DNA of 24,715 nt from a virus: the IMG/VR virus record IMGVR_UViG_3300033146_000597, positions 1-24,715 of that record. One strand, written 5' to 3'. The notes beneath the pieces are model-generated. The model was not told the DNA's origin and did not search any database. It saw only the letters and a list, made by a program, of their open reading frames with translations. This document shows positions 6,972-24,374 of the stretch, piece after piece (within the stretch, counting starts at the first letter, position 1; each line of letters begins with the position of its first letter). The translations under genes and the position numbers were made by a program.

Positions 6972-6988
6972 TCTTGTTGTTTTTTAAA

Positions 6989-8171: not shown

Positions 8172-8176
8172 ATAAT

Positions 8177-9043: not shown

Positions 9044-9044
9044 T

Positions 9045-10499
9045 CTATTGTACGTTTAATCTATAAATCATTGTGTTGTTAGGGTTCTTAATTACAGCCA
9101 TAAATTGACTCATTCTTGACTCTACCCAACCATCTTTCATTGTGGCTACATCTTTAACTACTTTATCACTCATTGGAGTGTAAGGGTCTCTCATACCTTT
9201 AAGTACACCGGTAATATCTTGTGCAGACTTAACATAATTAAGCTTGATGTTATCAGTTCCGCCAGTTTGGCCTAAGTCCATAATGTGATACTCATAACTT
9301 CTAACATAACCTTTAGCAGGGTGTCTCACAGGAGTTCTGTATTCATCATCTAACATAGGCTCCAATCTAAAGTCAATATAGAATCCAGCAGGGTGCATAT
9401 AACGTCTAAAGCTATTACCTAAACCTAAATTCTCTCTATCACCAAAGATATCCTTATTATCAACTCTTTCCCATCCTTGAGCTTTCTCTGAGATCGCGTT
9501 ATGAGCTTGTAATAGTCCATAAGAACCAGTACTAACTACATAATGTGTCTTATCTGTCTGGTTCTTACCAACTCTAAGCCTCATTATGTGGTCTGAAAAC
9601 TCATCAATATCAAAGTCATTATAATAGTTTAGATTAGCTCTTTCCATTTGTTGTACTAAACCAGGACCTTGTATTACATTCTCTCCTGAGTGTCTATCGA
9701 AATCGTCATAACCACCATTCTTGTTCATGTTATCTCTACCCCATAAGATAGTCTTATTCTTCAATTCTTTAAAGTGTAAGTCATTAACCCATGTATCATA
9801 ATGTTCCCATGTAGTTAATACATTGTTATTGTCATCTTTCCATGAAAATGCAACAGGTCTGTTAGCCATATCACCACCAGCTTCTCTTTCAGTTCTAGTA
9901 GAACTCCAGTTAAACGTGATAGCATAAGGACTAGTATAACTAGCTTTAGCACCTTTCATAGAACGTGTCATAGGTACAGAAGCACCATCTCTACTCCATA
10001 AAGTACCACTAGCTAATTCACTTGCAGGTATAAAGCTTTCAATAGGACCAAATACCTCACATGTATAAGAATAATTAGTACCCTCTTGTACAGGTCCTTC
10101 TATAATCTTAACTCTGTATCTGTCATTCATACCCACAATCTCATGCACTTCACTAAATAATGGGTCAGTAAATACCATATTAAACCTAGACTTATTGATA
10201 CCAACTCTATTCATATCATCAGCTCTATAAGAAACAAGTTTAGTATTACCTTTAACTTCACCATATATTCTGTAATTAATAGGGTCATCTGTTTCCATTA
10301 CCCCTACATTACCTCCTAATACAGTCTTTAAATAAGAATCTAAAGCCATACCTGTTGTATTTACTGAGTGTAAATAAGTCATAGTATCATCTCCCCATAC
10401 AGGGTCAATAGCTCTTATCTTTAATAAATTGTTTTTGTCTGTTAGACCATTCCACATTGGTTCTGGTCTAAACAAAATTCCGTTTGCATTAAAACTCAT
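9045..10499 (-). CDS. Probable major capsid protein
   Basis: A 484-residue protein placed directly after a scaffold-like gene and two genes after the portal, where tailed phages carry the major capsid protein. The composition is balanced, rich in Asn, Asp, Tyr and Trp, with alternating strands and helices and no signal peptide. It has a long N-terminal arm (MSFNANGILFRPEPMWNGL) and an extended segment near residues 200-260 that could be an E-loop or insertion. No sequence motif proves an HK97 fold, so the call rests on context, length and composition. The leader has an A-rich start region and no Shine-Dalgarno. It is transcribed with the scaffold gene 4 nt upstream. Confidence 0.7.
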   Translation of the reverse strand: MSFNANGILFRPEPMWNGLTDKNNLLKIRAIDPVWGDDTMTYLHSVNTTGMALDSYLKTVLGGNVGVMETDDPINYRIYGEVKGNTKLVSYRADDMNRVGINKSRFNMVFTDPLFSEVHEIVGMNDRYRVKIIEGPVQEGTNYSYTCEVFGPIESFIPASELASGTLWSRDGASVPMTRSMKGAKASYTSPYAITFNWSSTRTEREAGGDMANRPVAFSWKDDNNNVLTTWEHYDTWVNDLHFKELKNKTILWGRDNMNKNGGYDDFDRHSGENVIQGPGLVQQMERANLNYYNDFDIDEFSDHIMRLRVGKNQTDKTHYVVSTGSYGLLQAHNAISEKAQGWERVDNKDIFGDRENLGLGNSFRRYMHPAGFYIDFRLEPMLDDEYRTPVRHPAKGYVRSYEYHIMDLGQTGGTDNIKLNYVKSAQDITGVLKGMRDPYTPMSDKVVKDVATMKDGWVESRMSQFMAVIKNPNNTMIYRLNVQ

Positions 10500-10503
10500 A
10501 ATC

Positions 10504-11562
10504 TTAATTTAATTTTAATTTATTCATTATTAAACTCCTATTATTAGACTTATCTCCTTCCTTTTTGTAAGGAGACTTACTAAAAGCCTTCTCTATGGCT
10601 GCGATACCATTACTTCTCTTACTCTCAATTAATTTACTATCTGCTTTACTGCCTATTTTATTAGCTATAATAAGATAATTAATCTCAGCCAGCAGTCCAG
10701 GGTCTTCTTGTAATGCCTTCTCTAAATAAGAAATAGGTCTTTTATTTCCTCCTTGCTCTACAACTTCTACAGGTTCTAATACACTCTTTAGTACTTCTGT
10801 TTTAACTTTTTGATTAATTTTGTATCTATCAGATAATAAAGTATTCACAGTAGACTCAGTATTATTAACCCAATTATCATATTGTTGCTTTCTCTCATTA
10901 CTTAGTCTTATATTTTCTTCTTCTTCTCTTTTTATTCTAGCTTGACTAGTAACAAGTAATCTATCTATAGCGACATCCCCTTCTAACTTAATACTATCAG
11001 TATCCTCAGCAGATTCTATTCTTTTATTTACATACTCTTCACTATATCCATCAGACATTAGACTTTGCTTTATATACTTTTTATAAGTATCAGTGTCTAA
11101 TTTAGCAGTCTTAGCAGCCTCTAAATCTTTAACATTAAACAAATCTTGCTTAACTCTAGAAACATCCATACCTTTATTACCATACTTAATCAACTCCTGT
11201 ACTTCATTAGGGAGTCCTTCAAGATAGTTACTTATGACATCCTCATCTTTAGCATCAAATGCTTTAATAAGTTCATCAAAATTATCTACTTTACTATCCT
11301 TATCTAATACATTATTTTCTATCAGTAAGTCAGCAGTTAATTTAGCATAATTAACAGTATCATCTGCACCTTCTGGAATAACCTCTTCAGTAGGTAAATT
11401 ACTATTATCAACTTCTACAACTTCTCCATTAATTACAGGAGAAGCCTCAGTATCATCTATAACAGTATCTTTTATTATACTTGTATCTTCTTTGTTAGGT
11501 TCAGTAGTATCGGTAACTTTGTTATCGTCTTCACTAGAAACCATTAAATCTTTAATTTCCAT
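10504..11562 (-). CDS. Scaffold-like capsid assembly protein
   Basis: A 352-residue acidic protein. Residues 1-70 are Asp/Glu/Thr/Ser-rich and probably disordered. The middle and C-terminal parts are helical and coiled-coil-like (ARIKREEEENIRLSNERKQQYDNWVNN), and the last 40 residues are basic (KSPYKKEGDKSNNRSLIMNKLKLN). An acidic head, a coiled-coil body and a basic tail located between portal and capsid genes are the usual marks of a phage scaffolding protein, whose basic end binds the capsid subunit. It is the first gene after a host-type promoter at 11613-11620. No protease motif is seen. Confidence 0.65.
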   Translation of the reverse strand: MEIKDLMVSSEDDNKVTDTTEPNKEDTSIIKDTVIDDTEASPVINGEVVEVDNSNLPTEEVIPEGADDTVNYAKLTADLLIENNVLDKDSKVDNFDELIKAFDAKDEDVISNYLEGLPNEVQELIKYGNKGMDVSRVKQDLFNVKDLEAAKTAKLDTDTYKKYIKQSLMSDGYSEEYVNKRIESAEDTDSIKLEGDVAIDRLLVTSQARIKREEEENIRLSNERKQQYDNWVNNTESTVNTLLSDRYKINQKVKTEVLKSVLEPVEVVEQGGNKRPISYLEKALQEDPGLLAEINYLIIANKIGSKADSKLIESKRSNGIAAIEKAFSKSPYKKEGDKSNNRSLIMNKLKLN

Positions 11563-11604
11563 AAATTAAATATATCGTTTATTTTGAACTCGTTTTTATT
11601 CCTT

Positions 11605-11625
11605 TATTATTACAAAGGTAAAAAT
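11605..11625 (-). promoter_or_regulatory. Putative Bacteroidota-type promoter for the capsid operon
   Basis: On the minus strand the octamer TACCTTTG (11620 to 11613) matches the Bacteroidota minus-7 consensus TAnnTTTG. Its predicted start near 11605 leaves a leader of about 43 nt before the scaffold ATG at 11562. No clear TTG minus-33 element lies at the usual distance, so strength is uncertain. Confidence 0.5.
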
Positions 11626-11634
11626 TTAACATCG

Positions 11635-11663
11635 TTTAAAAACCATAAAAAACCGTTTTTAAA
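11635..11663 (-). terminator. Hairpin at the end of the portal gene (weak terminator or attenuator)
   Basis: TTTAAAAAC at 11635-11643 and GTTTTTAAA at 11655-11663 form a perfect 9-bp stem that includes the portal stop codon. The sequence after it on the minus strand is T-rich but interrupted, so termination would be partial. It lies just before the promoter for the scaffold gene and marks an operon boundary. Confidence 0.45.
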
Positions 11664-14070
11664 GCTTTTTTTGAGCAGGTTTCGATGAATTTTGAGACTT
11701 TTGTCGAGCGACAATTTCTTTTTCTTTTAACCTCAATTCTTCTTCTTTCAATCTAATATCCTCTTCATCTTTAAACTGCTTCATATTCAGTTCTCTATTC
11801 TTAACCTCATTTGACATCTTTTCTTTTTCAATTTCTATATTATCTTTAATACCATTAGAGTTGTCATCTCTAAAGTTACTTCTTTCATCTGTATAATCTT
11901 TAGCATCCAGTTCAATAGTCTTAATGTCTAATCTACTTTTAGCCCTTATAGATTCTAATTGTAACTCAAGTTCACCTTTAAGTTTTATTTTATCCATCTC
12001 TAATTTAGTAGTAGCCTCTATCTTAGCAACATCGGCTTCATTTTGACTCTTAGCTGCATCCTTAGCTTTCCTTTCTTTCTCATCTTCAAGTTTCTGTGCT
12101 TCAACTATCAACTCAAAACTATTATTAGTTTTAAATATCTTTATAAGCTCAGAATAAGTAATCTGTCCATTAGGTAATCCCTGTACTACTGCATTCTCTA
12201 ATATACCTACAAGCTTCTTAAACTTCCTTGTATTAACAGGAAATAAATCTATCTGTGCATTACTAAAGTCCTCATTAGTGCCTTCAAATACTGAGTAAGA
12301 GTAATCATCTAATATAGCTTGAAATGCTACACCACTCTTAAGTAATTGTCTACCTGTATTAAGTAACAAGTAATTCAAATCTAACATTATCTGCTCATAT
12401 CTATCGAACCAATACTCTGTAATATGCGAACTACTTACTCTACTCCTCTCAACATTACCAACTAACTCTCTCGTCGAAATAGAACCTAATCTTTGTGGTG
12501 TTATACCCGTAATCTTAGAAATCTGTTCCTCAGCCTTAGCTATCATATCTAGTATATGCACAATACTACTACCAACTTCCATATCTAATGGTTTAGAAGA
12601 CGTATTATACATACCAGCCAATTTACTTTGTGCTATACCTTTATTACCAGCTTTAAAACTATCTTTAACTCTTACACCATGTTGTTTCATATACCTCATA
12701 ACTTTAGGTACATCCCAACCATCAGGTATATTATGTAAATCTAATTCTATTATCTTACCAAAGTTCTTACTTAATATATCTTCAGCTCTAGCAAACAACA
12801 AGTTAATTAAATACACATAAGGAGATATTAAAGATACCATCGAACGTGATTTGTTATTTACAACATTAAAGTAGCCTCCTACATATCCAGAGTAACTCTC
12901 AAATGGATTATCTGGAGATATTACTCTAGGTTCTTTAACACCTTCACCAACAATAAGTTCACCACCAATTAAAGTGGCTTTATACCATTCAGCAACATAT
13001 CTAACAGTAAGCTCCTCACCTTCATCCTTATTTACAGTATAGTATTCACTTACATAATCATACTTAACTTCAGCATCCTCATCATAATACTTTCTTTTAT
13101 ATATCTTTCTAAATCCTTTCCAAGAGACATCTACAACTCTTATATTACCTTCCGAATCAGTTAAGCTAGTATTACCTACACTTTTACCTACCTTAAGAAA
13201 TTGATATGCATTGTCTCCTTCAAAGGCTTGGTGATATAGATTATATTCTGCCGCAGAAAGCTTACCACTTCCTGTTGCAGATGTTAATGTATTTTGTAAT
13301 ATATCACTAAATACAGATTTAGTTTTTATATACTCACCATATTCATCTATAATTTTACCTCTAGGTAAATATCTAACTTCAGCTACTATCTCAGCATCCT
13401 TTACATTATTACTGTTACCTGACCTTACTGTATAAGTATTCAAAGGATTACATCTTCTTACAAAAATATTGTCATTTCTAACCCCCACATAAAATATAGC
13501 TTGCCCTAATATAAGAGCTTCCCTCATACCTTCAGTTTTCAGTCTAGGAATATCATTAGTCTTCTTTATAATATTAAGTAACTTATTAGCACTTTTCTCT
13601 AAAGTTGACATAAACCTATCTGGCTGTAACGCTCTCATACTTTCTCTTAATTTCTCTTTATCTTTTATCTTACCACTAAGTGCATCTTGTAGTAACTCGA
13701 CAGTCTTCTGTCTTCTTTCTTCTGATTTAATAGACAGAGAATTTACATCAGTAACTGCTACACCGTATTCTTCATTTCGTTCTAAATACTCACCATGTAA
13801 TAAGTCAATCTTATCTCTTATTACTGCAAAGTTCTTAAAACTAGGAGTATAATTAGCATTAAATACTTTCATAGTATCAAAATGCTTCTTAAGTTCCTTA
13901 ACGTCTACAATACCATCATATAAATTGAGATTAGTTTGTTTTTCTTCATTTGTTAAAGAAATATTATTAACCTCACTTAATGCCATTGATACAGCTGCTA
14001 ATGTACAGTCTTTAAACCATTTCTTAGTCTTATCCTTAGATGAGACTTTCTGAATAGGTAATTTTTCCAT
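11659..14070 (-). CDS. Portal protein
   Basis: An 803-residue protein between TerL and the scaffold gene. The N-terminal 150 residues are charged and helical. The central part has the helix-strand pattern and 'arm' segments expected of portals (NPFESYSGYVGGYFNVVNNKSRSMVSL; ITGITPQRLGSIS). From about residue 655 to the end there is a long coiled coil, very rich in Lys and Glu, broken by DDNSNGIKDNIEIE at 735-748, which looks like a D-x-N-x-N-G-x-x-D calcium-binding loop. Portals of crAss-like and related Bacteroidota phages are of this size and have such tails, to my knowledge. It forms the dodecameric DNA gate at the capsid vertex. It follows TerL by 18 nt. The call rests on size, order and the absence of other candidates. 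Confidence 0.75.
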   Translation of the reverse strand: MEKLPIQKVSSKDKTKKWFKDCTLAAVSMALSEVNNISLTNEEKQTNLNLYDGIVDVKELKKHFDTMKVFNANYTPSFKNFAVIRDKIDLLHGEYLERNEEYGVAVTDVNSLSIKSEERRQKTVELLQDALSGKIKDKEKLRESMRALQPDRFMSTLEKSANKLLNIIKKTNDIPRLKTEGMREALILGQAIFYVGVRNDNIFVRRCNPLNTYTVRSGNSNNVKDAEIVAEVRYLPRGKIIDEYGEYIKTKSVFSDILQNTLTSATGSGKLSAAEYNLYHQAFEGDNAYQFLKVGKSVGNTSLTDSEGNIRVVDVSWKGFRKIYKRKYYDEDAEVKYDYVSEYYTVNKDEGEELTVRYVAEWYKATLIGGELIVGEGVKEPRVISPDNPFESYSGYVGGYFNVVNNKSRSMVSLISPYVYLINLLFARAEDILSKNFGKIIELDLHNIPDGWDVPKVMRYMKQHGVRVKDSFKAGNKGIAQSKLAGMYNTSSKPLDMEVGSSIVHILDMIAKAEEQISKITGITPQRLGSISTRELVGNVERSRVSSSHITEYWFDRYEQIMLDLNYLLLNTGRQLLKSGVAFQAILDDYSYSVFEGTNEDFSNAQIDLFPVNTRKFKKLVGILENAVVQGLPNGQITYSELIKIFKTNNSFELIVEAQKLEDEKERKAKDAAKSQNEADVAKIEATTKLEMDKIKLKGELELQLESIRAKSRLDIKTIELDAKDYTDERSNFRDDNSNGIKDNIEIEKEKMSNEVKNRELNMKQFKDEEDIRLKEEELRLKEKEIVARQKSQNSSKPAQKKL

Positions 14071-14088
14071 ATTTACAAAAGTAATTTA

Positions 14089-16182
14089 TTATACCCTCAA
14101 AATCAAGTCATCAATGTTTAATTTAGGGCTACCCTCACCTATAGAGTCATCCCAAAACGAATCTTTAGCTGGGTCATACACTTCATCTTCTTTATAATTC
14201 TCCATACCTACTATTCCTTTCTTGGCTTCATATAAAATCATTAACATACCTAAAGCACTTACTCTATCGTAGTTATTACTAGAATCCCAAGCACTCAACT
14301 CTTGTAGTAATGCAACAGAGTTTATAACATTAACATATTGAACTAACTCATCCTTAAATATCTTATCTAATAGCCATATCTTAATTAATCCTCTAGCATA
14401 CTTATTTATATTAGTAGTTCCAGGAGTACCATACTCTCTATCATTAGATACTTTAGACATTTTCTTTATTATTTCAGGGGCAGGTTCTAACAATCCAAGC
14501 TTACCTTTCTTCTCAAAGTACCATTTCAACCCTAGTAAGTTATTTTCAAAGTTAACAGTTGCATTATAATACATAGTTAAATACAATACTTGTTCATAAT
14601 ACTCAGCCGCTGTCTTAGGTCTACCTGTATATTCGGCAACAAGCATCCCTGTAACAACATTCATTACAAAGCAACTACCTAAACTCATAGTTTCACTACT
14701 ATCCTGGTCATAAGGGTCAACTCCTACTATATATAATCCTTGAGGTACTTCACCGTCAACCTTAGCAGGTACATCCCATATCTCTATAGCACCCTCATTA
14801 TTACCACCTTTTGCATGTGGAAAATTCCTAACTAATGGAGCAGTTAAATCATCTTCAAATACTATAGCTTTATTCCTTATCTTCATAAGACCAACTCTAC
14901 TAAAGTCAACCTCATTAGATAATGTAAGCAAATCAGCTAACCTATCATCTAATTTACGTACCGGAAAATCATTACCATCTACACGTAATAAAGCATCCTC
15001 AGGTCTAAGAGGTCTCTCTGACCTCCTTTGTAAGATAGCTGTAGCATCAGTACCTAACACTTCCATATTCTCTAGCTTATTGAACTCTACCTCGTAAGCT
15101 CCAAGTACCTCAGTGTTACCATCCTTATCCATGAATGCATTAATATTAGAATAGGAAGGAGCAAAGAATCCAGTCTTCTGATTTTCTCTTCTCTTCTTAC
15201 TCCATATATTATCTATAGAATGTATATTATATGCAGCTGGCTTAAAGAAAAATTCATTTAATGTCTTATATGATACCATCTTAGAACCACCAGTACCAAA
15301 TGCAACCATTAATCCATATGTTACACCATCCTGCTCAACACTCTCACGTGCTATTTGCCATGCTTTAAGTAATCCAGGGAACTCACCAGCCTCCTCATAC
15401 AATATAAGCTTACCTCTAACCCCCCTAGCCTTATCTGGTTTATTATTAAGTGACTTACCTATAATCTCACTTTTAAAGCCAACTTCTATCTTATTAGAGT
15501 AATGAGAAGCTCTCAAATGTAATAACGTATTATGTCTTTGGGAGTGCTTAAAAAAACCTGTATGTTGATTTATAAAGTTACCTATATCTTGTGCTTTATT
15601 CAATATACCATCCTTAACTAAATAAGTCTCCTCAGCTGCAAATACAAAGCTACTACTCTTAGGAATCAAATGAAAATTCCTCCTTAGCATACTAGCTCCC
15701 TTAAATGAATACCCTTTACCTCTACTCTTCAATACACTAGCATGCTTACCTAACTTCTCAGCTTCTTCTAAATAGTGAAAGTAATAATAGTCATAGTCCC
15801 ATATATCAGGAAACCATTCTTCTCTAGTACCTTTAACTTGCATACCCATTCTTACCTTTTCTTTATCTTCCTCTTTGTACTTTACTTTCATTATTCTACT
15901 AAAGTTAAGATAAAAGTAATAATACCCAGGTATCCAATCACTACCTATACTGTAACCTTCTATACTTCTCCTAGTCTGCTCTACCCAATACTTATAATAA
16001 GGACTATCAGGATAAGGACTATATGGGTGTTTAGTGTAGTACCCATACTCATCAAAATGTGCAGCTTCCTCTCTAAACTTATCTACATTAGCAAGCTTAT
16101 GCCCAAAATTACACCCAACTTCTACATCAGCTCCTACATCTCTATTGTATGGACTAACTAAACTCAAGTTCTTTTCTAACAT
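14089..16182 (-). CDS. terL: Terminase large subunit (packaging ATPase and nuclease)
   Basis: A 697-residue motor that packs DNA into the procapsid through the portal and cuts concatemers. The ATPase domain shows a Walker A-like LKSRGKGYS at 151-159, a Walker B LILYEE at 259-264, and a coupling motif AFGTGGS at 294-300. The nuclease domain shows acidic residues in VGVDPYDQD (D489), NFENN (E546) and NYDRVSALGM (D639), as in RNase H-fold terminase nucleases. Length is normal for Bacteroidota phages, and the SRGKGYS form of Walker A is seen in crAss-like terminases as far as I know. The first ATG overlaps the preceding gene by 29 nt. The next Met is far inside, so this start is likely. Confidence 0.95.
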   Translation of the reverse strand: MLEKNLSLVSPYNRDVGADVEVGCNFGHKLANVDKFREEAAHFDEYGYYTKHPYSPYPDSPYYKYWVEQTRRSIEGYSIGSDWIPGYYYFYLNFSRIMKVKYKEEDKEKVRMGMQVKGTREEWFPDIWDYDYYYFHYLEEAEKLGKHASVLKSRGKGYSFKGASMLRRNFHLIPKSSSFVFAAEETYLVKDGILNKAQDIGNFINQHTGFFKHSQRHNTLLHLRASHYSNKIEVGFKSEIIGKSLNNKPDKARGVRGKLILYEEAGEFPGLLKAWQIARESVEQDGVTYGLMVAFGTGGSKMVSYKTLNEFFFKPAAYNIHSIDNIWSKKRRENQKTGFFAPSYSNINAFMDKDGNTEVLGAYEVEFNKLENMEVLGTDATAILQRRSERPLRPEDALLRVDGNDFPVRKLDDRLADLLTLSNEVDFSRVGLMKIRNKAIVFEDDLTAPLVRNFPHAKGGNNEGAIEIWDVPAKVDGEVPQGLYIVGVDPYDQDSSETMSLGSCFVMNVVTGMLVAEYTGRPKTAAEYYEQVLYLTMYYNATVNFENNLLGLKWYFEKKGKLGLLEPAPEIIKKMSKVSNDREYGTPGTTNINKYARGLIKIWLLDKIFKDELVQYVNVINSVALLQELSAWDSSNNYDRVSALGMLMILYEAKKGIVGMENYKEDEVYDPAKDSFWDDSIGEGSPKLNIDDLILRV

Positions 16183-16708
16183 CCCCTCTTAATTTATTCT
16201 CACTTAAATTACTTTCTTCATCTACCATATCTATAGCCCCTTTCAAACTCTTCAGTAATTCAGTTTGCTTACTTAATATATCACTATACTGTTTAGGATT
16301 ATGTATCAGTTTGCCATTCAAGTCTCTCTCATCTAAATCTACCGCAGTAAGGAAATTACGTAATTTGCCTATATTGTTTATTATATCCCTAAGAAACTCC
16401 TTAGTATGAGACTTATCTAATGTAATCATAGAGTTGACTGCATTATTTATTACTTTATCATCTCTATAATCAACAGAATAACCAAACACTAAATCAGCTA
16501 CTACTTTAACTCTTTCATTCTTATGATATTCCCTAAAACTGTTATCAGGGTTCATACTAGTTATAAAATACACAAATGATATTTCTTTTATAGCCATCTC
16601 TTTATTCTCAGACTCATCTCTATCCCAAATTTGAAAGAAAGCATCTACTCCTAGTAGCTTATCATCAAATTCAATCTTACCTTTACTATTTACTTTAATT
16701 AATCTCAT
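16154..16708 (-). CDS. Unknown protein upstream of TerL (small terminase position)
   Basis: A 184-residue helical, charged protein. Features seen: an N-terminal beta section (MRLIKVNSKGKIEFDDKLL), an acidic helical core and a basic C-terminus ending NKLRGDVRKELEFS. No helix-turn-helix is obvious and no family is recognised. It lies immediately upstream of TerL, overlaps it by 29 nt, and its start overlaps the GIY-YIG gene by 4 nt. The position is where a small terminase subunit often sits, but the sequence does not show one. Its stop is TAG. Confidence 0.75.
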   Translation of the reverse strand: MRLIKVNSKGKIEFDDKLLGVDAFFQIWDRDESENKEMAIKEISFVYFITSMNPDNSFREYHKNERVKVVADLVFGYSVDYRDDKVINNAVNSMITLDKSHTKEFLRDIINNIGKLRNFLTAVDLDERDLNGKLIHNPKQYSDILSKQTELLKSLKGAIDMVDEESNLSENKLRGDVRKELEFS

Positions 16709-17160
16709 TTAAACCTTGTTTTATAGTATTTAGAATTATTTTTATTTAACATCTTAAATCCATTACTCCTCAGATACGTTATCCACTCTTGTTCATACAT
16801 GTAAACATCTGAAGTTTGTACTTTATTTAACTCAACTATAGTTAATTTACCGTTACTATCTATTATCTGTCCCATCCATAAATATTTAGAGTTCCAATCT
16901 TTCTTACCTAATCCCATAGCCTTAATTTGGTTAAGGTGGTTCTTAAATCTCTTCTCTATAGTCTGGGAAGTCTTACCTACATACAAAGTAGTGGGGGCAT
17001 CATTACCAGCAACAGCTCTAAATATTAAATATATGGTTTGCTTACTCTCTAAGTATTTAAAATTCTTTAACCTGTTCATATCTTTTTGATATACATTATT
17101 AGTTATAAGATTAATTTTACTTTTTATAAGAGGGTAAGCATTACCTAACTCTTTTTCCAT
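16705..17160 (-). CDS. GIY-YIG family endonuclease
   Basis: A 151-residue single-domain nuclease. The GIY equivalent is IYLI at 43-46, the YIG equivalent is LYVGKT at 59-64, then R71 and H75 (RFKNHL), the metal-binding glutamate in YEQEW (about E125) and N139/N141 in LNKNN. These are all the catalytic positions of the family, so it should be active. GIY-YIG enzymes cut DNA and are often free-standing homing endonucleases in phages. It sits inside the packaging operon with overlaps of 16 nt and 4 nt to its neighbours. The next gene upstream carries NUMOD-like repeats, which are often fused to such nucleases. A homing or mobile origin is likely; a packaging or repair role cannot be excluded. 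Confidence 0.88.
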   Translation of the reverse strand: MEKELGNAYPLIKSKINLITNNVYQKDMNRLKNFKYLESKQTIYLIFRAVAGNDAPTTLYVGKTSQTIEKRFKNHLNQIKAMGLGKKDWNSKYLWMGQIIDSNGKLTIVELNKVQTSDVYMYEQEWITYLRSNGFKMLNKNNSKYYKTRFK

Positions 17161-18044
17161 TTAAACCCGTACATAGAATTGTCGGTATCTAATTTTTTAA
17201 TTATATTACTTGGATTTGGTTTATTATAATCACCTATTATCTTTATAAACTCGACACACTCATTAACATCTCCATAATCTTTATGTAATATCTCACCTGT
17301 ATCTTTACTTATTATATCTATTTTATATGTATGCTTTATATTATCCCTAGAGTTCCTAAATATACCTAAAACATTATAGTCATCTTCTTTTACCCATATA
17401 TAACTACCAACCTTCATGGATACTTGAGAAGTTTTCTTACTCCCATTATATATAATAGATTTTAATATCTTAGTACTCTCATTCCCATAAAGTTCTTCTA
17501 ATTCTTCATAACTTTCTAATGTTTTAACTATATCTCCACTACTACTACACATAAGTAATTTCCCGGAATAGCTCAACTCTAATATTAAGTTACTCTTCTC
17601 ATCATCAGTCAGATAATGATAAAAATAGACAGTAGCCTGTATCTTACCTTTAACAAATTCCTTATTTAACCAATATTCTTCTCCAGTTATGTCATTATAA
17701 AATATATATCCTTTATTCTTAGTCCATTTCAATAAAGACCACCCACTTAAATAAATTAAAGTATTAATAGACTTGTAATAATTAAAATCTATCATGTTAT
17801 TCATCTTACCTTCAGTAGCTCTCCTTAATACATTATGATTAAAAGAAAAACTACCTAAATAAGGTAGTTTAATTCTCTTAACATATGTATCGTCATTTAA
17901 TTTATTACCATTAGATAAAGCTCTATGTACATTATTAAAGTAATCAGATATTATACTACGTATCTTAGTCTTACGTATCTTAGGGTATTTAATAATTAAA
18001 TCATCTAATACTTTATTAATTAAATATATATCTGTCCTTTCCAT
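17145..18044 (-). CDS. HU/IHF-like domain fused to NUMOD-like DNA-binding repeats
   Basis: A 299-residue basic protein. Residues 1-75 resemble an HU/IHF fold: two helices (IYLINKVLDDLI; SIISDYFNNVHRALSNG) followed by VKRIKLPYLGSFSF, comparable to the conserved LPGFGTF strand of HU. The part after about residue 185 contains two repeats, each with a hydrophobic strand, 'SSSGDIVKTLESYEELEELYG' or 'SKDTGEILHKDYGDVNE', and a terminal YIW or FKWK, which is the layout of NUMOD1-type modules of homing endonucleases. It is coupled by a 1-nt overlap to the nuclease gene upstream and by 16 nt to the GIY-YIG gene. Together they could be a split homing system or a phage DNA-bending factor. Both domain calls are from pattern only. 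Confidence 0.55.
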   Translation of the reverse strand: MERTDIYLINKVLDDLIIKYPKIRKTKIRSIISDYFNNVHRALSNGNKLNDDTYVKRIKLPYLGSFSFNHNVLRRATEGKMNNMIDFNYYKSINTLIYLSGWSLLKWTKNKGYIFYNDITGEEYWLNKEFVKGKIQATVYFYHYLTDDEKSNLILELSYSGKLLMCSSSGDIVKTLESYEELEELYGNESTKILKSIIYNGSKKTSQVSMKVGSYIWVKEDDYNVLGIFRNSRDNIKHTYKIDIISKDTGEILHKDYGDVNECVEFIKIIGDYNKPNPSNIIKKLDTDNSMYGFKWKKS

Positions 18045-18886
18045 TAGAGCTTATCCATCGTATTACTATTCAATGTAACATCTGTAATACTATGCTTTAT
18101 TTGGTCTTTAAGTATCTCCTTAACTAAATGAGGAACTAAAGGTATCTCATAAGCTTTAAATCCTTTCTCTCCATAGAAACTACTTAATCCATCAACATGA
18201 AATAAGAAACCTCCATCAACTTTGATACCTTCCTCCAATAAAAACTCTATATATACATTTAACTGTAATATACCTTTATCATGTCCTACATCTCTAAAAT
18301 CTTTCAATATTCCAGTCATTCTAGCAGGTAATCTTTTCTTATCTGCCTTATACTGTTCACTTGTAAATGCTTTACTAAACTTAAAATCCCCTACATAATA
18401 TTTACCTGTTATCTTATTCTGTAATAAAATATCAACTGTATAACCCATAGCATACTTTTTACTACCTTTAGGAGTCTCCATTCTAATTATATTAAAATTC
18501 TTATCTATCTGCTCCATTAACTTCTTGGCATTCTCATCTAATTTAGTAATAGGGATTGCATTAACTCTATCCATCCACCACATTTCACAATACTCATGCC
18601 CAGTAGTACCTAAAGCACTACTACGTTTGCCGAGAAGTCTCCAATACTTTCTTACACTTGCAGGATTAGTTAAAGCATTACCTTCCCTTGTATTCTTTTT
18701 AGCTACCATAGAGCTAACTATATTAGCATCAAAAGGCTTAGACCATTCCTTTATATGTTGTGTAGTACTTTTTAATACTACTCCATCCATTGTATAAGTA
18801 TGTGAAGGGTCATCATATGTAAACCCTTTCTTGTTATTTATCTTAGTTCTTTTATTCGAATTACTTTTTTTAATATTCAAGTCCAT
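18044..18886 (-). CDS. PD-(D/E)XK nuclease, RecB/Cas4-like
   Basis: A 280-residue nuclease. Key motifs visible: GTTGHE at 93-98 (conserved His and Glu), D152 in TVDILL, the core D167-F-K169 in YVGDFKF, and QLNVY at 208-212, the QxxxY motif of RecB/Cas4/exonuclease families. No four-Cys iron-sulphur cluster set is seen, unlike many Cas4 proteins, so a phage exonuclease is more likely. The first 20 residues are Lys/Asn-rich. It belongs to the late block upstream of TerL and could serve recombination, DNA end processing or packaging. Overlaps are 17 nt with the gene before it and 1 nt with the gene after it. Confidence 0.85.
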   Translation of the reverse strand: MDLNIKKSNSNKRTKINNKKGFTYDDPSHTYTMDGVVLKSTTQHIKEWSKPFDANIVSSMVAKKNTREGNALTNPASVRKYWRLLGKRSSALGTTGHEYCEMWWMDRVNAIPITKLDENAKKLMEQIDKNFNIIRMETPKGSKKYAMGYTVDILLQNKITGKYYVGDFKFSKAFTSEQYKADKKRLPARMTGILKDFRDVGHDKGILQLNVYIEFLLEEGIKVDGGFLFHVDGLSSFYGEKGFKAYEIPLVPHLVKEILKDQIKHSITDVTLNSNTMDKL

Positions 18887-19109
18887 ATCTACTATTATTT
18901 AATACCATTGTTAATTTATCTTTGTTTTCTTCAGTATTCTCTACATAGTAAGCTCTACCATGTACTACCATGAAAATCTTAAAGTCATTCTCATTAACTA
19001 TGAAGCTTTCTAATAGAATATCCTTAAATACTAAGGTTTCTAACTCATAGTTTCCCTCATTCATTTTTTTCTCCTTATCTTTATCTATTGATATAATCTC
19101 TATTATCAT
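18870..19109 (-). CDS. Small acidic hypothetical protein
   Basis: A protein of 79 residues if started at the ATG at 19109, which overlaps the upstream stop as ATGA; an internal Met at residue 16 (MNEGNYELETLVFKDIL) gives 64 residues. It is Glu/Lys/Asp/Asn-rich, with alternating strand and helix patterns (ETLVFKDILLESFIV; FKIFMVVHGRAYYV), and soluble. No family is recognised. The ATGA overlap favours the longer start. It overlaps the nuclease gene by 17 nt, so it is part of the same operon. Confidence 0.65.
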   Translation of the reverse strand: MIIEIISIDKDKEKKMNEGNYELETLVFKDILLESFIVNENDFKIFMVVHGRAYYVENTEENKDKLTMVLNNSRYGLEY

Positions 19110-19384
19110 CTTTGCATTATCTTTATGATTTTATCTAATTCTTCATAACTATGTAATTTACCTCTAAATAAGTTAATAAACATTATAGTGTATCCTTCCC
19201 CATCGTCATCTTCAATCTTAGATTTCCTAGCATACTTTACCATATCATTAGATTCAAATAAAATAACATCATCAACTACTTCCATCCCATCTCTTAATAA
19301 AGCAATACCATTCTTTTCAAACTTAGTACTTGTTATTTGTTTAAATCCATTCTCTTCTAAGCATTTTAAAAACTCATTTTCCAT
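19106..19384 (-). CDS. Small hypothetical protein, first gene of the minus-strand block
   Basis: A 92-residue soluble protein with a helix-strand pattern (FLKCLEENGFKQITSTKFEKNGIALLRDG; YTIMFINLFRGKLHSYEELDKIIKIM). No family is recognised; the length and fold pattern resemble small phage hypothetical proteins. It is the first gene of the leftward transcript that leads to TerL and the portal. Its stop and the next start overlap as ATGA. The upstream DNA is extremely A/T-rich, and I found no exact TAnnTTTG box within 200 bases. Confidence 0.65.
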   Translation of the reverse strand: MENEFLKCLEENGFKQITSTKFEKNGIALLRDGMEVVDDVILFESNDMVKYARKSKIEDDDGEGYTIMFINLFRGKLHSYEELDKIIKIMQR

Positions 19385-19992
19385 TCTAATCTATTTATAT
19401 ATTAATTACTAATTTTATTTTTTTTATTTATTTTATTATTATAATAAATTAAGATAAGTTAAATACTTATTATTTTTTTATTTATACTTATATTAAATCT
19501 TACTAATAATTCCTTCGGCTCTTTGTTTCTTTTACGAAGTTACAAAAAATAATTGAGACTTACAAGTGCCTAAAAATAAAAAAAGAGGGGTTAGAGCTAT
19601 GAAGGTTGATAGGTAAGGCAGGGTAAAACTAAAAAAAAATTACAAGTAAATAATGAGAAGTACTAAGTAAACTAAATAAAATAGAGCTTACACTTTTTGA
19701 TTGAAAGAAGACTTAGTATGCACGCGTCCAATGGAGGGTAAGAAAACTCAAAAACTAAATTTAACTTTAGCTTATATAAGTATTTAGCTTTATTAAAATA
19801 TAACAAATTGCACTTAAGACCCTACCAGGGATGTAGGCTGTATTAGAGACTTCATAGCCCTTTTAGCCTCCACAAGTAAATTCAAATTGTATTGGGTGGG
19901 ATAGAAAGGGGAACTTGAGAGTGGGGCTGACTTGATAGGGGAGCTGTGTTATTCCTTATAAAAGTAAATGTAGAGTTGATACTTAGGGGAGG

Positions 19993-20167
19993 CTCTTTAA
20001 ATTTCCAGAGAAAGATATACTAACTCGCCGAACATTTACATCTATGAGGCACTTAGAGCCTATAAGTAATATGAGTTATATTAAACATACATAATGAGTA
20101 TTACAAAAGACACGTATTACATTTAACCATATTCTCGGAGATTTTATCTTTCTCTGGAAATTAAGAG
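19993..20167. repeat. Inverted repeat, 23 bp arms, enclosing two smaller hairpins
   Basis: CTCTT at 19993-19997 and AATTTCCAGAGAAAGATA at 20000-20017 pair with TATCTTTCTCTGGAAATT at 20145-20162 and AAGAG at 20163-20167, with a 2-nt bulge. The 127-nt interior has AGGC/GCCT (20047-20050 with 20058-20061) and TAATAT-GAGTT-ATATTA (20067-20083). It could be a compact structured RNA of about 175 nt, or a DNA site with two mirrored binding sequences. Confidence 0.75.
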
Positions 20168-20281
20168 GCATAGGATAGTAATACTAAGAACACTTATACT
20201 TTACAACAACAAAGCTACCACCCTTATCTTAACCTATCCCCACATAAAATTTTTATATATAAAATTTTTCCTAATCTATAT

Positions 20282-20400
20282 AGGTGGGTAAATTAGAAGG
20301 ATGGGAATTAGGGGGGGGGTAACTAAAATAAGGAATGAAGGAGGGAGTAGTTAGGAAGTAAATAGAGTGTTAGGGGAGGGAGAGAGGTAGGAGGGAATTT
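20282..20400 (+). other. G-rich tract with nine-G run
   Basis: The plus strand has GGG at 20285-20287, GGG at 20303-20305 and nine consecutive G at 20311-20319, then several GGG and GAGGGAG groups up to 20396, in an otherwise A/T-rich phage. This could form a G-quadruplex. A poly-G run may also be a slippage site, so its length could vary. Confidence 0.5.
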
Positions 20401-20463
20401 TTTTATGTGATTTTTTTGTTGGATTAAGAAAGTAGGGGAAGTCAGTTGATGTGAAATACCTAT

Positions 20464-20564
20464 GGGGATGACCCCTACTATAATTTGAGTGGGAAACATG
20501 CGGGGGTTAATCCGTGTGTAAAGCTCAGTGCAAATACCGAAAGGCACTTAAAAAATTAGGAGGT
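20464..20564 (+). promoter_or_regulatory. Structured 5' leader of the 150-aa gene
   Basis: Three hairpins lie in a row: GGGG-ATGA-CCCC (20464-20475); ACATGCGG with CCGTGTGT, 8 bp including two wobbles (20496-20519); and AGTGC with GCACT (20527-20548), whose loop holds a CCGAAAG segment. They are followed by AGGAGGT at 20558-20564. The stem array suggests a regulated or stabilised leader. It matches no riboswitch I know. Confidence 0.5.
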
Positions 20565-20584
20565 AAATTAAAAAAATAAGCTTT

Positions 20585-21037
20585 ATGATAAAAGCGGAAA
20601 TAAGAGACGAGTTAACCATAGCTGGGGAACTTGTTAAGCCTGCGAGAGAGACGCAGGCAAATTCTAACGGAAAGATACAGTTAGAATTAAAGATTAAGAC
20701 AGACCATGGTTATAGGACTGTCTACATCCCGAAAGGGTTCGCTACTAACCAGCTAGTCACTGGGAATAATGTAGTGATAGAATTCAGCCAACCTCTAGCT
20801 GGGTTGACTGGATACATAAATGAAGGAGAAGAAGTCCTTCATGGTATAGATCCTACAACAGGTAAGTTGTGGGAAGGCTTAATTAAAGGGCAAGAGTTAA
20901 GCCCTAAGTTAGAGAATCTGTTCAGTTATTCTCAAAAGGAGAATGAACTGAATAAGAAGTTAACGGCTCTAGAATCTCTGTCAGAGGAGAAATTAGAGTA
21001 TTTGACTAAATATAATACAGTTGCACAATTAGTGTAA
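20585..21037 (+). CDS. 150-aa plus-strand protein of unknown function
   Basis: The first rightward gene. Residues 1-85 are beta-rich (ELTIAGELVKPARE; IQLELKIKT; YRTVYIPKGF; NNVVIEFSQPL), compatible with an OB-like or other small barrel. Residues 105-150 are helical and coiled-coil-like (NELNKKLTALESLSEEKLEYL). No family is recognised, and a DNA- or RNA-binding role is only a possibility. A stop at 20564-20566 excludes an upstream in-frame start. The perfect AGGAGGT is 20 nt before the ATG, too far for normal use. A 12-bp hairpin covers the stop codon. The gene is followed by a long structured region with no coding. Confidence 0.75.
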   Translation: MIKAEIRDELTIAGELVKPARETQANSNGKIQLELKIKTDHGYRTVYIPKGFATNQLVTGNNVVIEFSQPLAGLTGYINEGEEVLHGIDPTTGKLWEGLIKGQELSPKLENLFSYSQKENELNKKLTALESLSEEKLEYLTKYNTVAQLV

Positions 21038-21043
21038 CTGTAT
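21015..21043 (+). other. 12-bp hairpin spanning the stop codon
   Basis: ATACAGTTGCAC (21015-21026) pairs with GTGTAACTGTAT (21032-21043), including one G-T wobble, around the loop AATTA. The TAA stop at 21035-21037 lies within the 3' arm. No T-run follows, so this is not a standard terminator; it may cap or protect the message end or begin the downstream RNA. Confidence 0.6.
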
Positions 21044-21054
21044 TGTAATGTATA

Positions 21055-21805
21055 GTACACATCAATAGTCAGCAAGACTAGTTCTATTGGTGTGTACGAA
21101 TTCTTATACGTTTTAGACGTAGCCTTCAATGGCATATAAGAACACAACATGTGTGATGAGCATAGGAACAAATCATTGACAAGTCTATTACACAAGAGCT
21201 AATTTGAAGTGTAATTAGTTAACTAACTCGTATGTGGGAGTTAGTTATTAAAACTGAGAAGAAGTCCAAGTAGAATTGGATTAGGTTTCACATAGCATTA
21301 TAGTGAATTGGTACAAATCGAATAATTGATGGTAGGACAAGTAACCCTACAACAGGTCGAATAGTACATAAAGTATCTATATGCAGTGCAGAACAGTAGC
21401 TAACTCTCAATACCATGAGAGAACTACCCTAAGAGATTGGGAATTACATGAGTTAAATTACATGTGGTATTAATATTATAGTCTGATTTGCTATCAATCT
21501 ATTACAGACTTTAAACTCGTAAAGCATACCTAGTGTATGTGTAAGATTGGATTACCATTAATCTTAATGGTTATTGAACTCGTTATAGGGAGGGATATAT
21601 AAAAACACAAAGAAGTCCTTAGGGATGAGTTGTCTATAATGCTCACGATACACACCATGCAGAGAGATAACTTCAAAGATGGTTTAAATGTGTATAACCT
21701 TAAAGTAATTTAGGGAGGTACCGAAAGCAGGTGATTACCATATAGTGGTAGGTTTGATGCTCCTAAGCATTAATTTAGTAGCATCCTAATAAGTGATTGG
21801 TTAGG
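21055..21805 (+). ncRNA. Candidate large structured noncoding RNA
   Basis: No coding frame is credible, yet hairpins follow one another. Main helices: 21055-21068 with 21084-21097 (14 bp); 21101-21106 with 21137-21142, enclosing TACGT/ACGTA and GCC/GGC as a three-way junction; 21187-21193 with 21209-21215; AACTAACTC at 21221-21229 with 21238-21246 (9 bp); 21263-21269 with 21276-21282; 21404-21409 with 21416-21421; 21480-21485 with 21505-21510; 21554-21560 with 21565-21571; 21648-21658 with 21679-21695; 21757-21761 with 21766-21770. It ends 13 nt before a tRNA-like element. The form recalls GOLLD or ROOL RNAs of phages, but class membership is not shown. Confidence 0.6.
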
Positions 21806-21817
21806 GTGTTGCTTTAT

Positions 21818-21892
21818 CTCTCAATAAATGCTAATAGATTAATAGTCTATTAGTATATATAGGTAATGTCAGTTCGATTCTGACTTGAGAGA
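21818..21892 (+). ncRNA. tRNA-like element lacking a D arm
   Basis: The acceptor stem is perfect (CTCTCAA 21818-21824 with TTGAGAG 21885-21891) and the T arm is standard (GTCAG-TTCGATT-CTGAC, 21868-21884). Total length is 75 nt, as in a tRNA. The middle instead forms one 8-bp arm, CTAATAGA with TCTATTAG around TTAATAG (21831-21853). There is no GG-containing D loop, so the anticodon is unclear (AAT if the 7-nt loop is used). It may be a degenerate tRNA or an RNase P-recognised processing element. Only 6 nt separate it from the fMet tRNA. Confidence 0.6.
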
Positions 21893-21898
21893 CTAGAT

Positions 21899-21971
21899 TG
21901 CAGGATGGAGCAGTTGGTGGCTCGTTGGGCTCATAACCCAGAGGTCGTAGGTTCGAATCCTACTCCTGCTA
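21899..21971 (+). tRNA. Initiator tRNA-fMet, anticodon CAT
   Basis: A complete cloverleaf of 73 nt. D stem GAGC/GCTC, anticodon stem TTGGG/CCCAG, loop CTCATAA with anticodon CAT at 34-36, T arm GTAGG-TTCGAAT-CCTAC, discriminator A. Three initiator marks are present: positions 1 and 72 (T-T) cannot pair, the D stem has A11-T24 (purine 11), and the anticodon stem has three consecutive G-C pairs. No CCA is encoded, so it is added after transcription. It follows a tRNA-like element by 6 nt and probably shares its transcript. Phages that carry tRNAs more often carry elongators. Confidence 0.95.
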
Positions 21972-22021
21972 CAATACCAATATGCTGTTACTAGTCATTT
22001 AGATTAGTGATGGTGGTTGGT

Positions 22022-22380
22022 TAATAGTCCTAACTAGGACTAGCCCTTGATTATGAATTAAGGTGAGATACATTTGAGTATTTTGTGGGGCTTTAAAGAT
22101 TACAAAGACTGAAATGTTAAAGGGGTTTAGGATTGATTGGGGGAATGTGAGGAGTGATTGGGAAGTTGTGGGTGAAGGGGGCGAAGTGCCCTTATTAGTA
22201 TCCACCTAACGAAACACCAACCCACCCACCCCCACAACCTCCCCCCAATCCTAACAATACCACCAAATCCCACCTCTCAAAATAATCCCCTAAATAATAA
22301 CAAATCAAATGGGCATACAGAGAGGAGGGAGAAAAGCTATAACATAGATAGTAGAGCAATCTGTATCGAAAGTAATAGCT
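22022..22380 (+). ncRNA. Candidate structured noncoding RNA with G-rich/C-rich long hairpin
   Basis: Downstream of the fMet tRNA. Helices: TAGTCCT-AACT-AGGACTA (22025-22042). A long interrupted stem: TTAGGATTG at 22127-22135 with CAATCCTAA at 22246-22254, then GGGGG with CCCCC, and GTTGTGGGTG at 22165-22174 with CACCCCCACAAC at 22227-22238. TCCC-A-CCTCTC at 22268-22278 with GAGAGG-A-GGGA at 22320-22330. AGCTAT/ATAGCT at 22335-22340 with 22375-22380. The strong G-then-C strand bias is explained by the pairing. No coding frame is credible. Confidence 0.55.
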
Positions 22381-22853
22381 ATAAAAATAAAATTAAGTAG
22401 TCCATCTTTGTGCTGGGGTTCAAACCTAAGTATTTTATTGGACATAAATAATTATAAAGTTGATTGAGGAGGAATTGCAAGAAACTGGAGTAAGTATTAG
22501 ATATATAACTATACTAATTCACATTCCATACATATTGTAATTCTTCCTTACAACACTAACAACTATAATAATATCTAAAATACCATCCTAACTTCCCAAG
22601 GGTTAGCTACATTATGTAGAGTATTGAGGGGATATTAATATCTAAATATCAGAATAACAGAGACAACCCTATATTAATATAGGAATCTTTAAAGCTATAT
22701 ATTTGTTTAGGTATTTATTACACTCAACTTCAATTCAGGAGTTAGAGTTAAAACATCTATCATGAAAAGTCCTATGACCATTGGTCAATCATAGGCATAA
22801 ACAGTTTGTACCAGCTCTTATGATACTGAGTAATGTATCTACAAATAATTTAA
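22381..22853 (+). other. Noncoding stretch with palindromes and a candidate promoter
   Basis: No gene is seen. It holds two palindromes sharing the core ATATTAATAT (GATATTAATATC at 22631-22642 and CCTATATTAATATAGG at 22668-22683), a TAnnTTTG box (TATATTTG, 22698-22705) and a hairpin CCTATGA/TCATAGG (22771-22795). The layout could be an operator and promoter for the transcript that covers the start-less frame downstream. Confidence 0.5.
22668..22711 (+). promoter_or_regulatory. Putative operator palindrome and Bacteroidota-type promoter
   Basis: The 16-bp perfect palindrome CCTATATTAATATAGG (22668-22683) lies in the minus-33 area of TATATTTG (22698-22705), an exact TAnnTTTG match with a start expected near 22711. 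A related 12-bp palindrome lies 25 nt upstream. A dimeric regulator could use both. No TTG minus-33 element is visible. Confidence 0.4.
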
Positions 22854-23195
22854 CTTTCTTACATAACAGTAAGCGTAGGTACAGATTTTAATGAAACAGA
22901 TAATAACATATTAATCGTAAACAAAGAATTCAAATTAAAGTATTTGAATTTTCTAAATCATAAGCATGGGTTTAAAGTCATATACGACAACGTGCTGCTC
23001 CTATCTGATAAGGGGTTAGAAAAATTCTTTAATGAAATTATTAAGGAAGAGATTAAAGTTTCCGTTACATTTGACGGAAATTGGAGTAAGAGCTTAGCAG
23101 CTCTATATCAAAGAGCTTCGAATATATCCACTATGCCTGCCCCAAACGGGAGTGAGGAAGGATGGACATGGTGTAAAGAAACCATATTCTCCTAA
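22854..23195 (+). pseudogene. Open frame of 114 codons without a start codon
   Basis: The frame follows a TAA at 22851 and is open to TAA at 23193-23195. It contains no ATG or GTG at its head; the only usual alternative is TTG at 22944, which gives 83 residues. The translation looks protein-like (ITVSVGTDFNETDNNILIVN; KHGFKVIYDNVLLLSDKG; a C-terminal GWTWCKETIFS) and an open run this long is unusual in such A/T-rich DNA. No family is recognised. The DNA also contains strong hairpins, for example TTTCCGT/ACGGAAA near 23060. It may be a 5'-truncated gene, a coding piece split by an intron, or a gene starting with a rare codon. Confidence 0.45.
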
Positions 23196-23200
23196 AAAAT

Positions 23201-23900
23201 AACGTTATCCATTTATTGGATTCACAATCTACTACGTTAAGGTAAGATTATATAGATAGAGGTAGCATTAACATTATAATATTAAGGCATCCGAAAGGTA
23301 TAAGTCCTTATTTCCCATGTTGTAGGGAATTAAAATTGCATTAGTCTCAATGCGTTACTATTTATAGTAATATACAAAATGTCGAATCAATAGATATGTA
23401 CTTACATAGAGGGTTGATTATAAGTGGCAGGTAGTACAATAAGTCTAACAACTTAGAAAACTATTAGTAGTAAATATAAAGAGTCATTATGTTAGTAATG
23501 ATGTGGTTATATTTACAATATAGGTATACTGAACAAACCTATAAAGACGAATCTATCTTATAGCAAAACTTGCTATATAATAAAACAGAACTGGAAAAAT
23601 ATGTTTAAGTCTTTTAAATGAGGAGCTTAATGATATAAAGTAAAATTTATATTGTCTTCGAGAGAAGTATTGTTGGAAACTATACCAGTAGTGAAAAATA
23701 ATAACTCAATAATCATAATAGTTTAGCGGCTAGATAGGATTAAAGAGTAGAAGTTTAGAAGAGTCATTACAGTTGATTGTCTGACCATACAATTCAAGCT
23801 AAGTACAGTGAAGTGATTTATCATCACGTTTACAGATTATACTTTAAAATAGTATAAGGCATTGTACATTAAACCTGAGAGATTGTAATAGGGTTTAAAT
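23201..23900 (+). ncRNA. Second candidate structured noncoding RNA
   Basis: No credible frame; consecutive hairpins. AACGT at 23201-23205 with ACGTT at 23234-23238, enclosing ATCCA/TGGAT; TTCCC at 23312-23316 with 23325-23329; TGCATT/AATGCG (23337-23354); TTACTA/TAGTAA (23355-23370); AATCAA at 23385-23390 with 23414-23419 enclosing TATGT/ACATA; a compound stem TAAATATAA + TCATTA with TAATGA + TTATATTTA (23471-23515); TATAGGT/ACCTATA (23519-23543); TATAGCAA-AAC-TTGCTATA (23559-23577); CTTC-GAGA-GAAG (23656-23667); GTGAT/ATCAC (23813-23827); TATACT/AGTATA (23838-23856); TTAAACC/GGTTTAA (23869-23898). Confidence 0.55.
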
Positions 23901-23914
23901 ATTAATACTAACAT

Positions 23915-24123
23915 GAGCTATAACACTTCGATAATTTACAAACTCAATTATTAAAATTACTAATTTTAATAGTTGTTTGACTATTTATTTTGATGGTACG
24001 TAACGTCAATCATATAATAGTAAGTAAAAATATAAAATTTAGTACATTTTATATATGCGATATAATGGTATCTTATTTGAAAAAATAATAAGTAGTAAGT
24101 TCGATTCTTACATAGCTCCACCA
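23915..24123 (+). ncRNA. tRNA/tmRNA-like domain with a ~135-nt structured insert
   Basis: GAGCTAT (23915-23921) is the exact complement of ATAGCTC (24112-24118), which follows a standard T arm GTAAG-TTCGATT-CTTAC (24095-24111) and is followed by CACCA. Just before the T arm are a D-arm-like hairpin GATA-TAATGG-TATC (24059-24072) and an anticodon-like arm TTATT/AATAA with a 9-nt loop TGAAAAAAT (24073-24091). Between the 5' acceptor strand and the D-like arm lie a 14-bp hairpin (23945-23975), a compound hairpin (23980-24021) and ATATAAAAT/ATTTTATAT (24030-24054). This is a closed multibranch RNA, either tmRNA-like or a tRNA carrying an insertion after acceptor position 7. The end AGCTCCACCA is as in tmRNA and tRNA-Ala. 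Confidence 0.5.
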
Positions 24124-24175
24124 AGACATTAATATATAAACCTTTAGAATTGAAATATTCACGGTAATGTCGTTA

Positions 24176-24191
24176 AACCTTTTTAAAGGTT
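24176..24191 (+). terminator. Hairpin, possible weak terminator
   Basis: AACCTTT (24176-24182) pairs with AAAGGTT (24185-24191). It follows the tRNA-like domain and precedes the small membrane gene by 45 nt. It is not followed by a T-run, so it may be only a 3'-end stabiliser. Confidence 0.35.
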
Positions 24192-24236
24192 ACAAATTAT
24201 ATAATTAAATAGAATTATTAATTAAATACATATATT

Positions 24237-24374
24237 ATGGCAGTAATATTAATAGTATCTCTAATTGGTTGGATTCTAATAGGGATATTAAATAAGAAAT
24301 TAATTACAGGAAGCTATATAGCCACTCTTGTATTACTATTAATAGCTAATGGAACAATGTTAGCTATTATATAA
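24237..24374 (+). CDS. Small two-helix membrane protein
   Basis: A 45-residue protein. It has two hydrophobic segments (residues 2-18, AVILIVSLIGWILIGIL, and about 28-45, IATLVLLLIANGTMLAII) joined by a short NKKLITGSY turn. That is a simple hairpin membrane protein, similar in shape to many small phage membrane or holin-like proteins, but no family is recognised. The ATG follows an A/T-rich leader without Shine-Dalgarno, as expected for Bacteroidota. The gene is 45 nt after the hairpin at 24176-24191 and 52 nt before the next membrane gene, so they are probably one transcript. The codon pattern is consistent with real coding. Confidence 0.65.
   Translation: MAVILIVSLIGWILIGILNKKLITGSYIATLVLLLIANGTMLAII

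Follow-up and report, generated by a model that had tools for sequence, protein, structure and literature searches.

What kind of element is the hairpin-rich, nearly gene-free stretch at positions 21038-24236 of the viral record IMGVR_UViG_3300033146_000597? We analyzed the whole IMG/VR record (24,715 bases; hereafter the window), which is probably a genome fragment of a crAss-like phage. This stretch (hereafter the block) folds more strongly than shuffled DNA, above all on the plus strand, and it contains a tRNA and tRNA-like elements, keeps its position in four phages, and, apart from tRNA, matches no known RNA family. We consider it about 45% probable that an early plus-strand transcript carries here one or a few large structured RNAs of the GOLLD or ROOL kind, which are released at the tRNA and tRNA-like marks.

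Structure, strand, and coding content of the block

We scored folding as a z value in 150-nt windows against dinucleotide-shuffled controls, a check proposed in the initial annotation of this DNA, and found an energy excess. Mean z in the block was -1.90 on the plus strand and -1.12 on the minus strand, and -0.43 to -0.56 in the structural genes. The dense succession of perfect stems that had been described was likewise recovered: counted without overlap, perfect stems 7 bp or longer (loop up to 30) number 21 in the block versus 8.6 +/- 2.8 in shuffles (~2.4-fold), and those 10 bp or longer number 4 versus 0.2, while counts of 6-7 bp stems in the structural genes (1-19400) stayed at the shuffled level. 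Copies of one mobile hairpin were considered as a source of these stems and rejected, given no repeated stem family and k-mer repeats near shuffled levels. A promoter and terminator scan was uninformative (38 promoter-like sites versus 27 expected).

Palindromes that arise at the level of DNA have no preferred strand, and an excess on the plus strand therefore argues against them. Pooling non-overlapping windows from this genome and three relatives described below (n = 73), we obtained z values of -1.54 for the plus strand versus -1.07 for the minus strand (paired p = 0.00096). Taken singly, the relative G007 (p = 0.0014) and the window (p = 0.018) folded better on the plus strand, and the relatives G001 and G002 showed no significant difference. 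Single mismatches within stems gave GU:AC ratios of 25:12, 35:19, 29:15, and 10:2 under four settings (p ~0.04-0.05) and 47:33 under a fifth (p = 0.15); the five settings overlap and hence are not independent. Hairpins capped by GNRA or UNCG loops numbered 9 on the plus strand of the window, versus 2.1 expected, and 1 on the minus strand, versus 1.0 expected. Together, the strand bias, the preponderance of GU over AC, and the capped loops favor, with moderate strength, selection acting on plus-strand RNA.

Coding content is low. The open reading frames (ORFs) of at least 50 amino acids (aa) in the block are 22944-23195 (plus strand, TTG start) and, on the minus strand, one each of 68 and 54 aa. 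The stop-free frame 22887-23195 exceeds its shuffled length (p = 0.015) and is the only frame in the block that is better than chance; it matched no family in PHROGs or Pfam. The remaining 1.85 kb and 1.04 kb are as open as shuffled DNA (p = 0.44-0.58). When all six frames were translated with stops read through and compared with PHROGs and Pfam, nothing emerged beyond one match at E = 0.04, and no frameshifted remnants of known genes were found; decayed or recoded genes were rejected on this ground. The openness comparison and the six-frame searches thus agree with the earlier statement that the block holds no credible gene apart from one start-less frame. By eye, this frame has an ATG six codons ahead of a TAA. 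In the relative G002 (contig L006, ~4463-4570, minus strand), the frame of a 178-aa ORF is similarly open upstream to an ATG six codons ahead of an in-frame TGA (also by eye), where readthrough or recoding is possible.

tRNA-like elements and the skew switch

The initial annotation had proposed three plus-strand elements for the block, a true tRNA and a pair resembling tRNAs, and all three hold up: ARAGORN and Rfam recognize a tRNA-Met, Rfam scores its upstream neighbor at 31.8 bits, and a scan for acceptor stems and T arms identifies the element near the 3' end (Table 1). The neighbor (21818-21892) has a perfect 7-bp acceptor, a canonical T arm, and a long hairpin in place of the anticodon arm, lacks a normal D arm, and was recovered only under permissive Rfam filters. 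The 3' element (23915-24122) has the acceptor stem, T arm, and CCA end of a tRNA-like structure. Its acceptor, GAGCTAT/ATAGCTC, is perfect over 7 bp (p = 0.006 in shuffles), its T arm is canonical (GTAAG-TTCGATT-CTTAC), a GAAA-capped arm replaces the anticodon arm, the end is CACCA, and the element includes a hairpin-rich insertion of ~140 nt. T arms of this form are absent from the minus strand, and the shuffled expectation is about zero. A further site, at 62377 (plus strand) of the G001 contig in a noncoding gap downstream of a 719-aa gene, combines a strong T arm (AGGGG-TTCGATT-CCCCT) and an acceptor whose partner strand is imperfect; we regard it as another degenerate tRNA-like element.

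Between structured blocks B and C, a G-rich, almost C-free arm gives way to a C-rich, almost G-free one, and this switch is predicted to fold as a hairpin of ~135 nt (22122-22256). The top-scoring switch of this kind genome-wide sits in the homologous block of all four genomes (window 22188, G001 56905, G002 17423, G007 89057), with weaker pairing between the arms in G001 than in the window.

Table 1. Features in and around the block, in window coordinates
Feature	Position	Strand	Basis or details
Inverted-repeat element	20005..20157	+	153 nt; ends CCAGAGAAAGA...TCTTTCTCTGG, inner CCGA/TCGG
Structured leader of first plus-strand gene	20440..20584	+	TATGGGGATGACCC hairpin; 73.5% identity to G001 over 102 nt
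First plus-strand gene	20585..21037	+	ORF list; 150 aa; z -4.36
Structured noncoding block A	21038..21817	+	Consecutive hairpins; many predicted pairs >0.9 probability; z
tRNA-like element	21818..21892	+	Rfam tRNA 31.8 bits, E 0.0007
tRNA-Met (CAT)	21899..21972	+	ARAGORN; Rfam 62.2 bits
Structured noncoding block B	21973..22109	+	Three stable hairpins in predicted fold
Skew-switch hairpin	22110..22310	+	Arms G-rich/C-free (22110-22181) and C-rich/G-free (22212-22310) on either side of a GAAGT-capped tip
Structured noncoding block C	22311..22886	+	z down to -5.4 at 22401-22550
Possible small gene	22887..23195	+	102-codon stop-free frame without ATG; TTG at 22944 gives 83 aa
Structured noncoding block D	23199..23914	+	z -3.5 to -3.9 at 23376-23600; predicted fold
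tRNA-like 3' element	23915..24122	+	Acceptor, T arm, CACCA end; z -3.73

The locus in related phages

The window matched TerL, portal, and major head PHROGs, as expected of Crassvirales, and its terminase is ~40% identical to TerL of annotated crAss-like genomes. A leftward block (1-19384) encodes a tail-fiber-like protein (weak match), the major head protein, portal, large terminase, and an exonuclease, and a rightward gene block begins at ~20585 with a gene whose 150-aa product matched no PHROGs or Pfam family. We searched IMG/VR with the terminase and capsid proteins and found three relatives with the complete region: G001 (contig L003, 73 kb, TerL 65% identical), G002 (L006, 92.6 kb, 49%), and G007 (L077-L082, 93.9 kb with overlapping ends, 50%), the last from the capsid search. 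All share the layout of a terminase/exonuclease block, an origin-like leader, one rightward gene (139-169 aa), and then 1-2.5 kb of largely noncoding DNA, in which very small genes may or may not occur. This stretch is strongly structured in two of the three relatives (mean plus-strand z of -1.96 in G001 and -2.09 in G007), in both of which no other 4-kb bin of the genome folds as strongly on the plus strand (-2.24 and -2.42, respectively). Noncoding gaps at other crAss-like loci mostly have z values between -0.1 and -1.2, although one or two come close to -1.7; since most lack such structure, the block is a trait of this clade rather than of all crAss-like phages.

Other searches added little to this set. 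Among the matches listed from a nucleotide search of 50,697 phage genomes, there was only the tRNA-Met and none to the upstream element; protein searches with the first gene, the G001 719-aa protein, and the exonuclease yielded no further genomes; and a DNA-pattern search of IMG/VR with the conserved leader and the 153-nt element returned G001 only. Prokaryote genome contigs matched only distant crAss-like phages, and literature searches turned up nothing specific on a locus of this kind in crAss-like phages.

An inverted repeat of 152-156 nt, with near-invariant ends and inner CCGA/TCGG, lies shortly before the first rightward gene in four phages and is a candidate origin or regulatory RNA. 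The 153-nt form in the window, probably an origin or leader element, recurs with the same length and ends in G001 (L003 6243-6395, minus strand) and in contig L002 (251-410, minus strand). A model of the 153-nt element (R1) matched L002 251-410 at E = 1.3e-4 and found no match in G002 or G007, and a 156-nt inverted repeat of similar form is visible in G007 (L078 6454-6609). Five of 24 pairs in the alignment of the 153-nt element are changed on both sides, in a comparison of two sequences with the structure predicted from those same two. Just before the first gene of G002 is a full match to the DUF805b RNA (RF02914; L006 5983-6017, minus strand; 44 bits, cut-off 35.6); the DUF805b-like match in the window (20527-20562) is weak, at 19.4 bits, below the cut-off. 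Because the cumulative GC-skew minimum falls at 19535 (54379 in G001), the divergent region is the probable origin.

Several features lie beside these main subjects. A C-rich to G-rich switch precedes the first rightward gene (window 20190-20442, L002 1-180, L078 ~6700-7050). It lies beside the GC-skew minimum, contains G8-G9 tracts and long stretches that lack C (119 nt in the window), and looks like an origin. Very small membrane-like proteins (~45-50 aa) are encoded near the structured blocks at 24237-24374 of the window and at L006 5308-5163 (minus strand). In G001, a second long, weakly coding stretch (304-4103), itself unstructured, lies at the far end of the structural block, and another structured bin spans 64-68 kb (z ~-2.1 to -2.4). 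G007 carries a tandem pair of tRNA-Met genes elsewhere in its genome.

Possible functions and known systems

We infer transcription, processing, discreteness, and a trans-acting role for the RNA of the block, as follows. The block would be transcribed rightward with the first early gene and the tRNA-Met, its product being a structured RNA rather than a message. During synthesis, this RNA would fold locally, forming one hairpin after another and small multi-branched domains. The tRNA-Met, its D-arm-less neighbor, and the CCA-ending element at 24122 may then serve as processing marks for host RNase P and tRNA 3' nucleases, so that a stable RNA, or a few of them, about 0.8-2 kb in length would be freed to act in trans during infection, in the manner of GOLLD and ROOL. 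One single large RNA may be the product, as only one of several readings.

A number of observations weigh against discrete large RNAs. The flanking ORFs are as structured as the block or more so (20585-21037, z -4.36; the ORF from 24427, z ~-3), and since structure extends into them, a clear RNA boundary is absent; nor, therefore, does the structured zone begin at 21015/21038, where the initial annotation had placed its start. The G002 block is weaker (plus -0.67, minus -1.08; 8 windows) and split by small genes, and in the G001 zone, two small ORFs and probable terminators intervene. No ordinary tRNA was found in G001 or G002. Inside the block, no nucleotide similarity is detectable among the four phages, and no two sequences could be aligned for covariation. 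Some of these points are also what one would expect if the early-operon messenger RNA (mRNA) were simply kept folded throughout, as untranslated regions, leaders, and terminators of tiny genes or as protection from nucleases or RNA-targeting defense, with no discrete large RNA. This is the main rival reading, unlikely on balance while still carrying appreciable weight. The structured flanking ORFs and the small genes interspersed in the G001 and G002 zones fit it, as do the G007 gene at 10051-10419, which folds strongly on the plus strand only (z -3.4, -5.1), and the DUF805b cis-regulatory RNA before the first gene of G002. However, the longest near-noncoding pieces, of 1.85 kb (window) and 1.4 kb (G007), far exceed the needs of untranslated regions, the internal tRNA and CCA-ending tRNA-like elements suggest processing, and the adjoining 719-aa gene in G001 is unstructured (z -0.93).

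The remaining explanations place the function in DNA, in no function, or in protein. With the cumulative GC-skew minimum 1-5 kb away, the conserved 153-nt inverted repeat and the C-rich to G-rich switch immediately upstream, and the reverse switch common to all four genomes, the block might belong to a replication origin, its repeats and skew switches acting as hairpins of single-stranded DNA or as sites for R-loops or primers. An ordinary origin, however, has no need of tRNA-like folds or of hairpins over 3 kb, and the plus-strand bias, GU preference, and GNRA/UNCG loops indicate RNA, which makes this improbable. We give an equally small likelihood to neutral noncoding DNA, in which template-switch palindromes and decaying tRNA genes accumulate without selection. 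In favor of this, the hairpins have no common sequence among themselves, the fold excess extends to the minus strand (z -1.1), two tRNA elements out of three are degenerate, and the primary sequence is unconserved. Yet phages shed useless DNA, and four divergent phages retain 1-3 kb at one position; the strand bias and GU preference are unexpected of DNA-level palindromes, and the acceptor stems and T arms are still perfect. The earlier claim of selection on RNA structure rather than decay is supported: the fold excess, plus-strand bias, GU excess, and relatives' locus speak for it, and decay of former genes found no support. Missed or recoded protein genes, through an alternative code or frameshifted remnants, are very improbable; the ATG-less frame 22887-23195 is longer than expected, but nothing in PHROGs or Pfam apart from the match at E 0.04 came from the six readthrough frames, and the rest of the block is no more open than shuffles.

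Returning to discrete large RNAs, it is possible, though less likely than not, that they make up a new class of phage noncoding RNA of very large size. In such a class, place and folding rather than sequence would be kept across a distinct crAss-like clade, with a tRNA-like, CCA-ending 3' structure and a built-in, strand-asymmetric long hairpin. A new class, one of the options named in the initial annotation, is a possibility only, as structure continues into neighboring genes. The tRNA-like end and the position kept in four genomes provide testable handles. Genome-wide ordered RNA structure occurs in some RNA viruses, and if the whole early mRNA were folded instead, the locus would be a DNA-phage counterpart.

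The covariance-model searches suggested at the outset (GOLLD, ROOL, OLE, tmRNA, and introns) left the proposed kinship with GOLLD or ROOL without a detectable match. With Rfam 15 at gathering score, only tRNA reached threshold in the window, and OLE, group I/II introns, and transfer-messenger RNA (tmRNA) were unmatched; at E up to 10 across the window and relatives, only tRNA and the DUF805b leader appeared. Searched at E up to 10 with the GOLLD model (RF02032; conserved 3' region), the window and the genomes G001, G002, G005, and G006 were all unmatched, and the ROOL model (RF03087) gave no match either, although in one dedicated search the control genomes were also unmatched, making that search weak. 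For tmRNA, ARAGORN reported the tRNA-Met only, Rfam models were unmatched, and no tag reading frame was identified.

In anatomy, the locus has several known counterparts. GOLLD and ROOL are large structured phage RNAs near tRNAs; they assemble into empty cages, and no function is known for them. In one studied case, GOLLD follows a tRNA-Met, and tRNAs can sit in the GOLLD linker (PMC12286853). The block resembles GOLLD, a large phage or prophage RNA near or around tRNAs, in holding its tRNA-Met inside, but differs in having no covariance-model match or alignable common core; it resembles ROOL, found near tRNA islands, but lacks a ROOL match. The element at 23915-24122 recalls tmRNA and viral tRNA-like 3' structures in that its acceptor, T arm, and CCA end enclose a large insertion, but is unrecognized by ARAGORN or the Rfam tmRNA models. 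DUF805b, a cis-regulatory motif before the first gene of G002, spans the gene leader alone and leaves out the structured block. As in phage tRNA arrays, the tRNA-Met is preceded a few nt away by a second tRNA-like gene, whereas here mostly non-tRNA hairpins lie between and after. If large RNAs are indeed made here, this would be a third, unrelated kilobase-scale structured RNA locus beside a phage tRNA, pointing to repeated invention by phages, and the crAss-like locus would offer another system for asking what large phage RNAs do.

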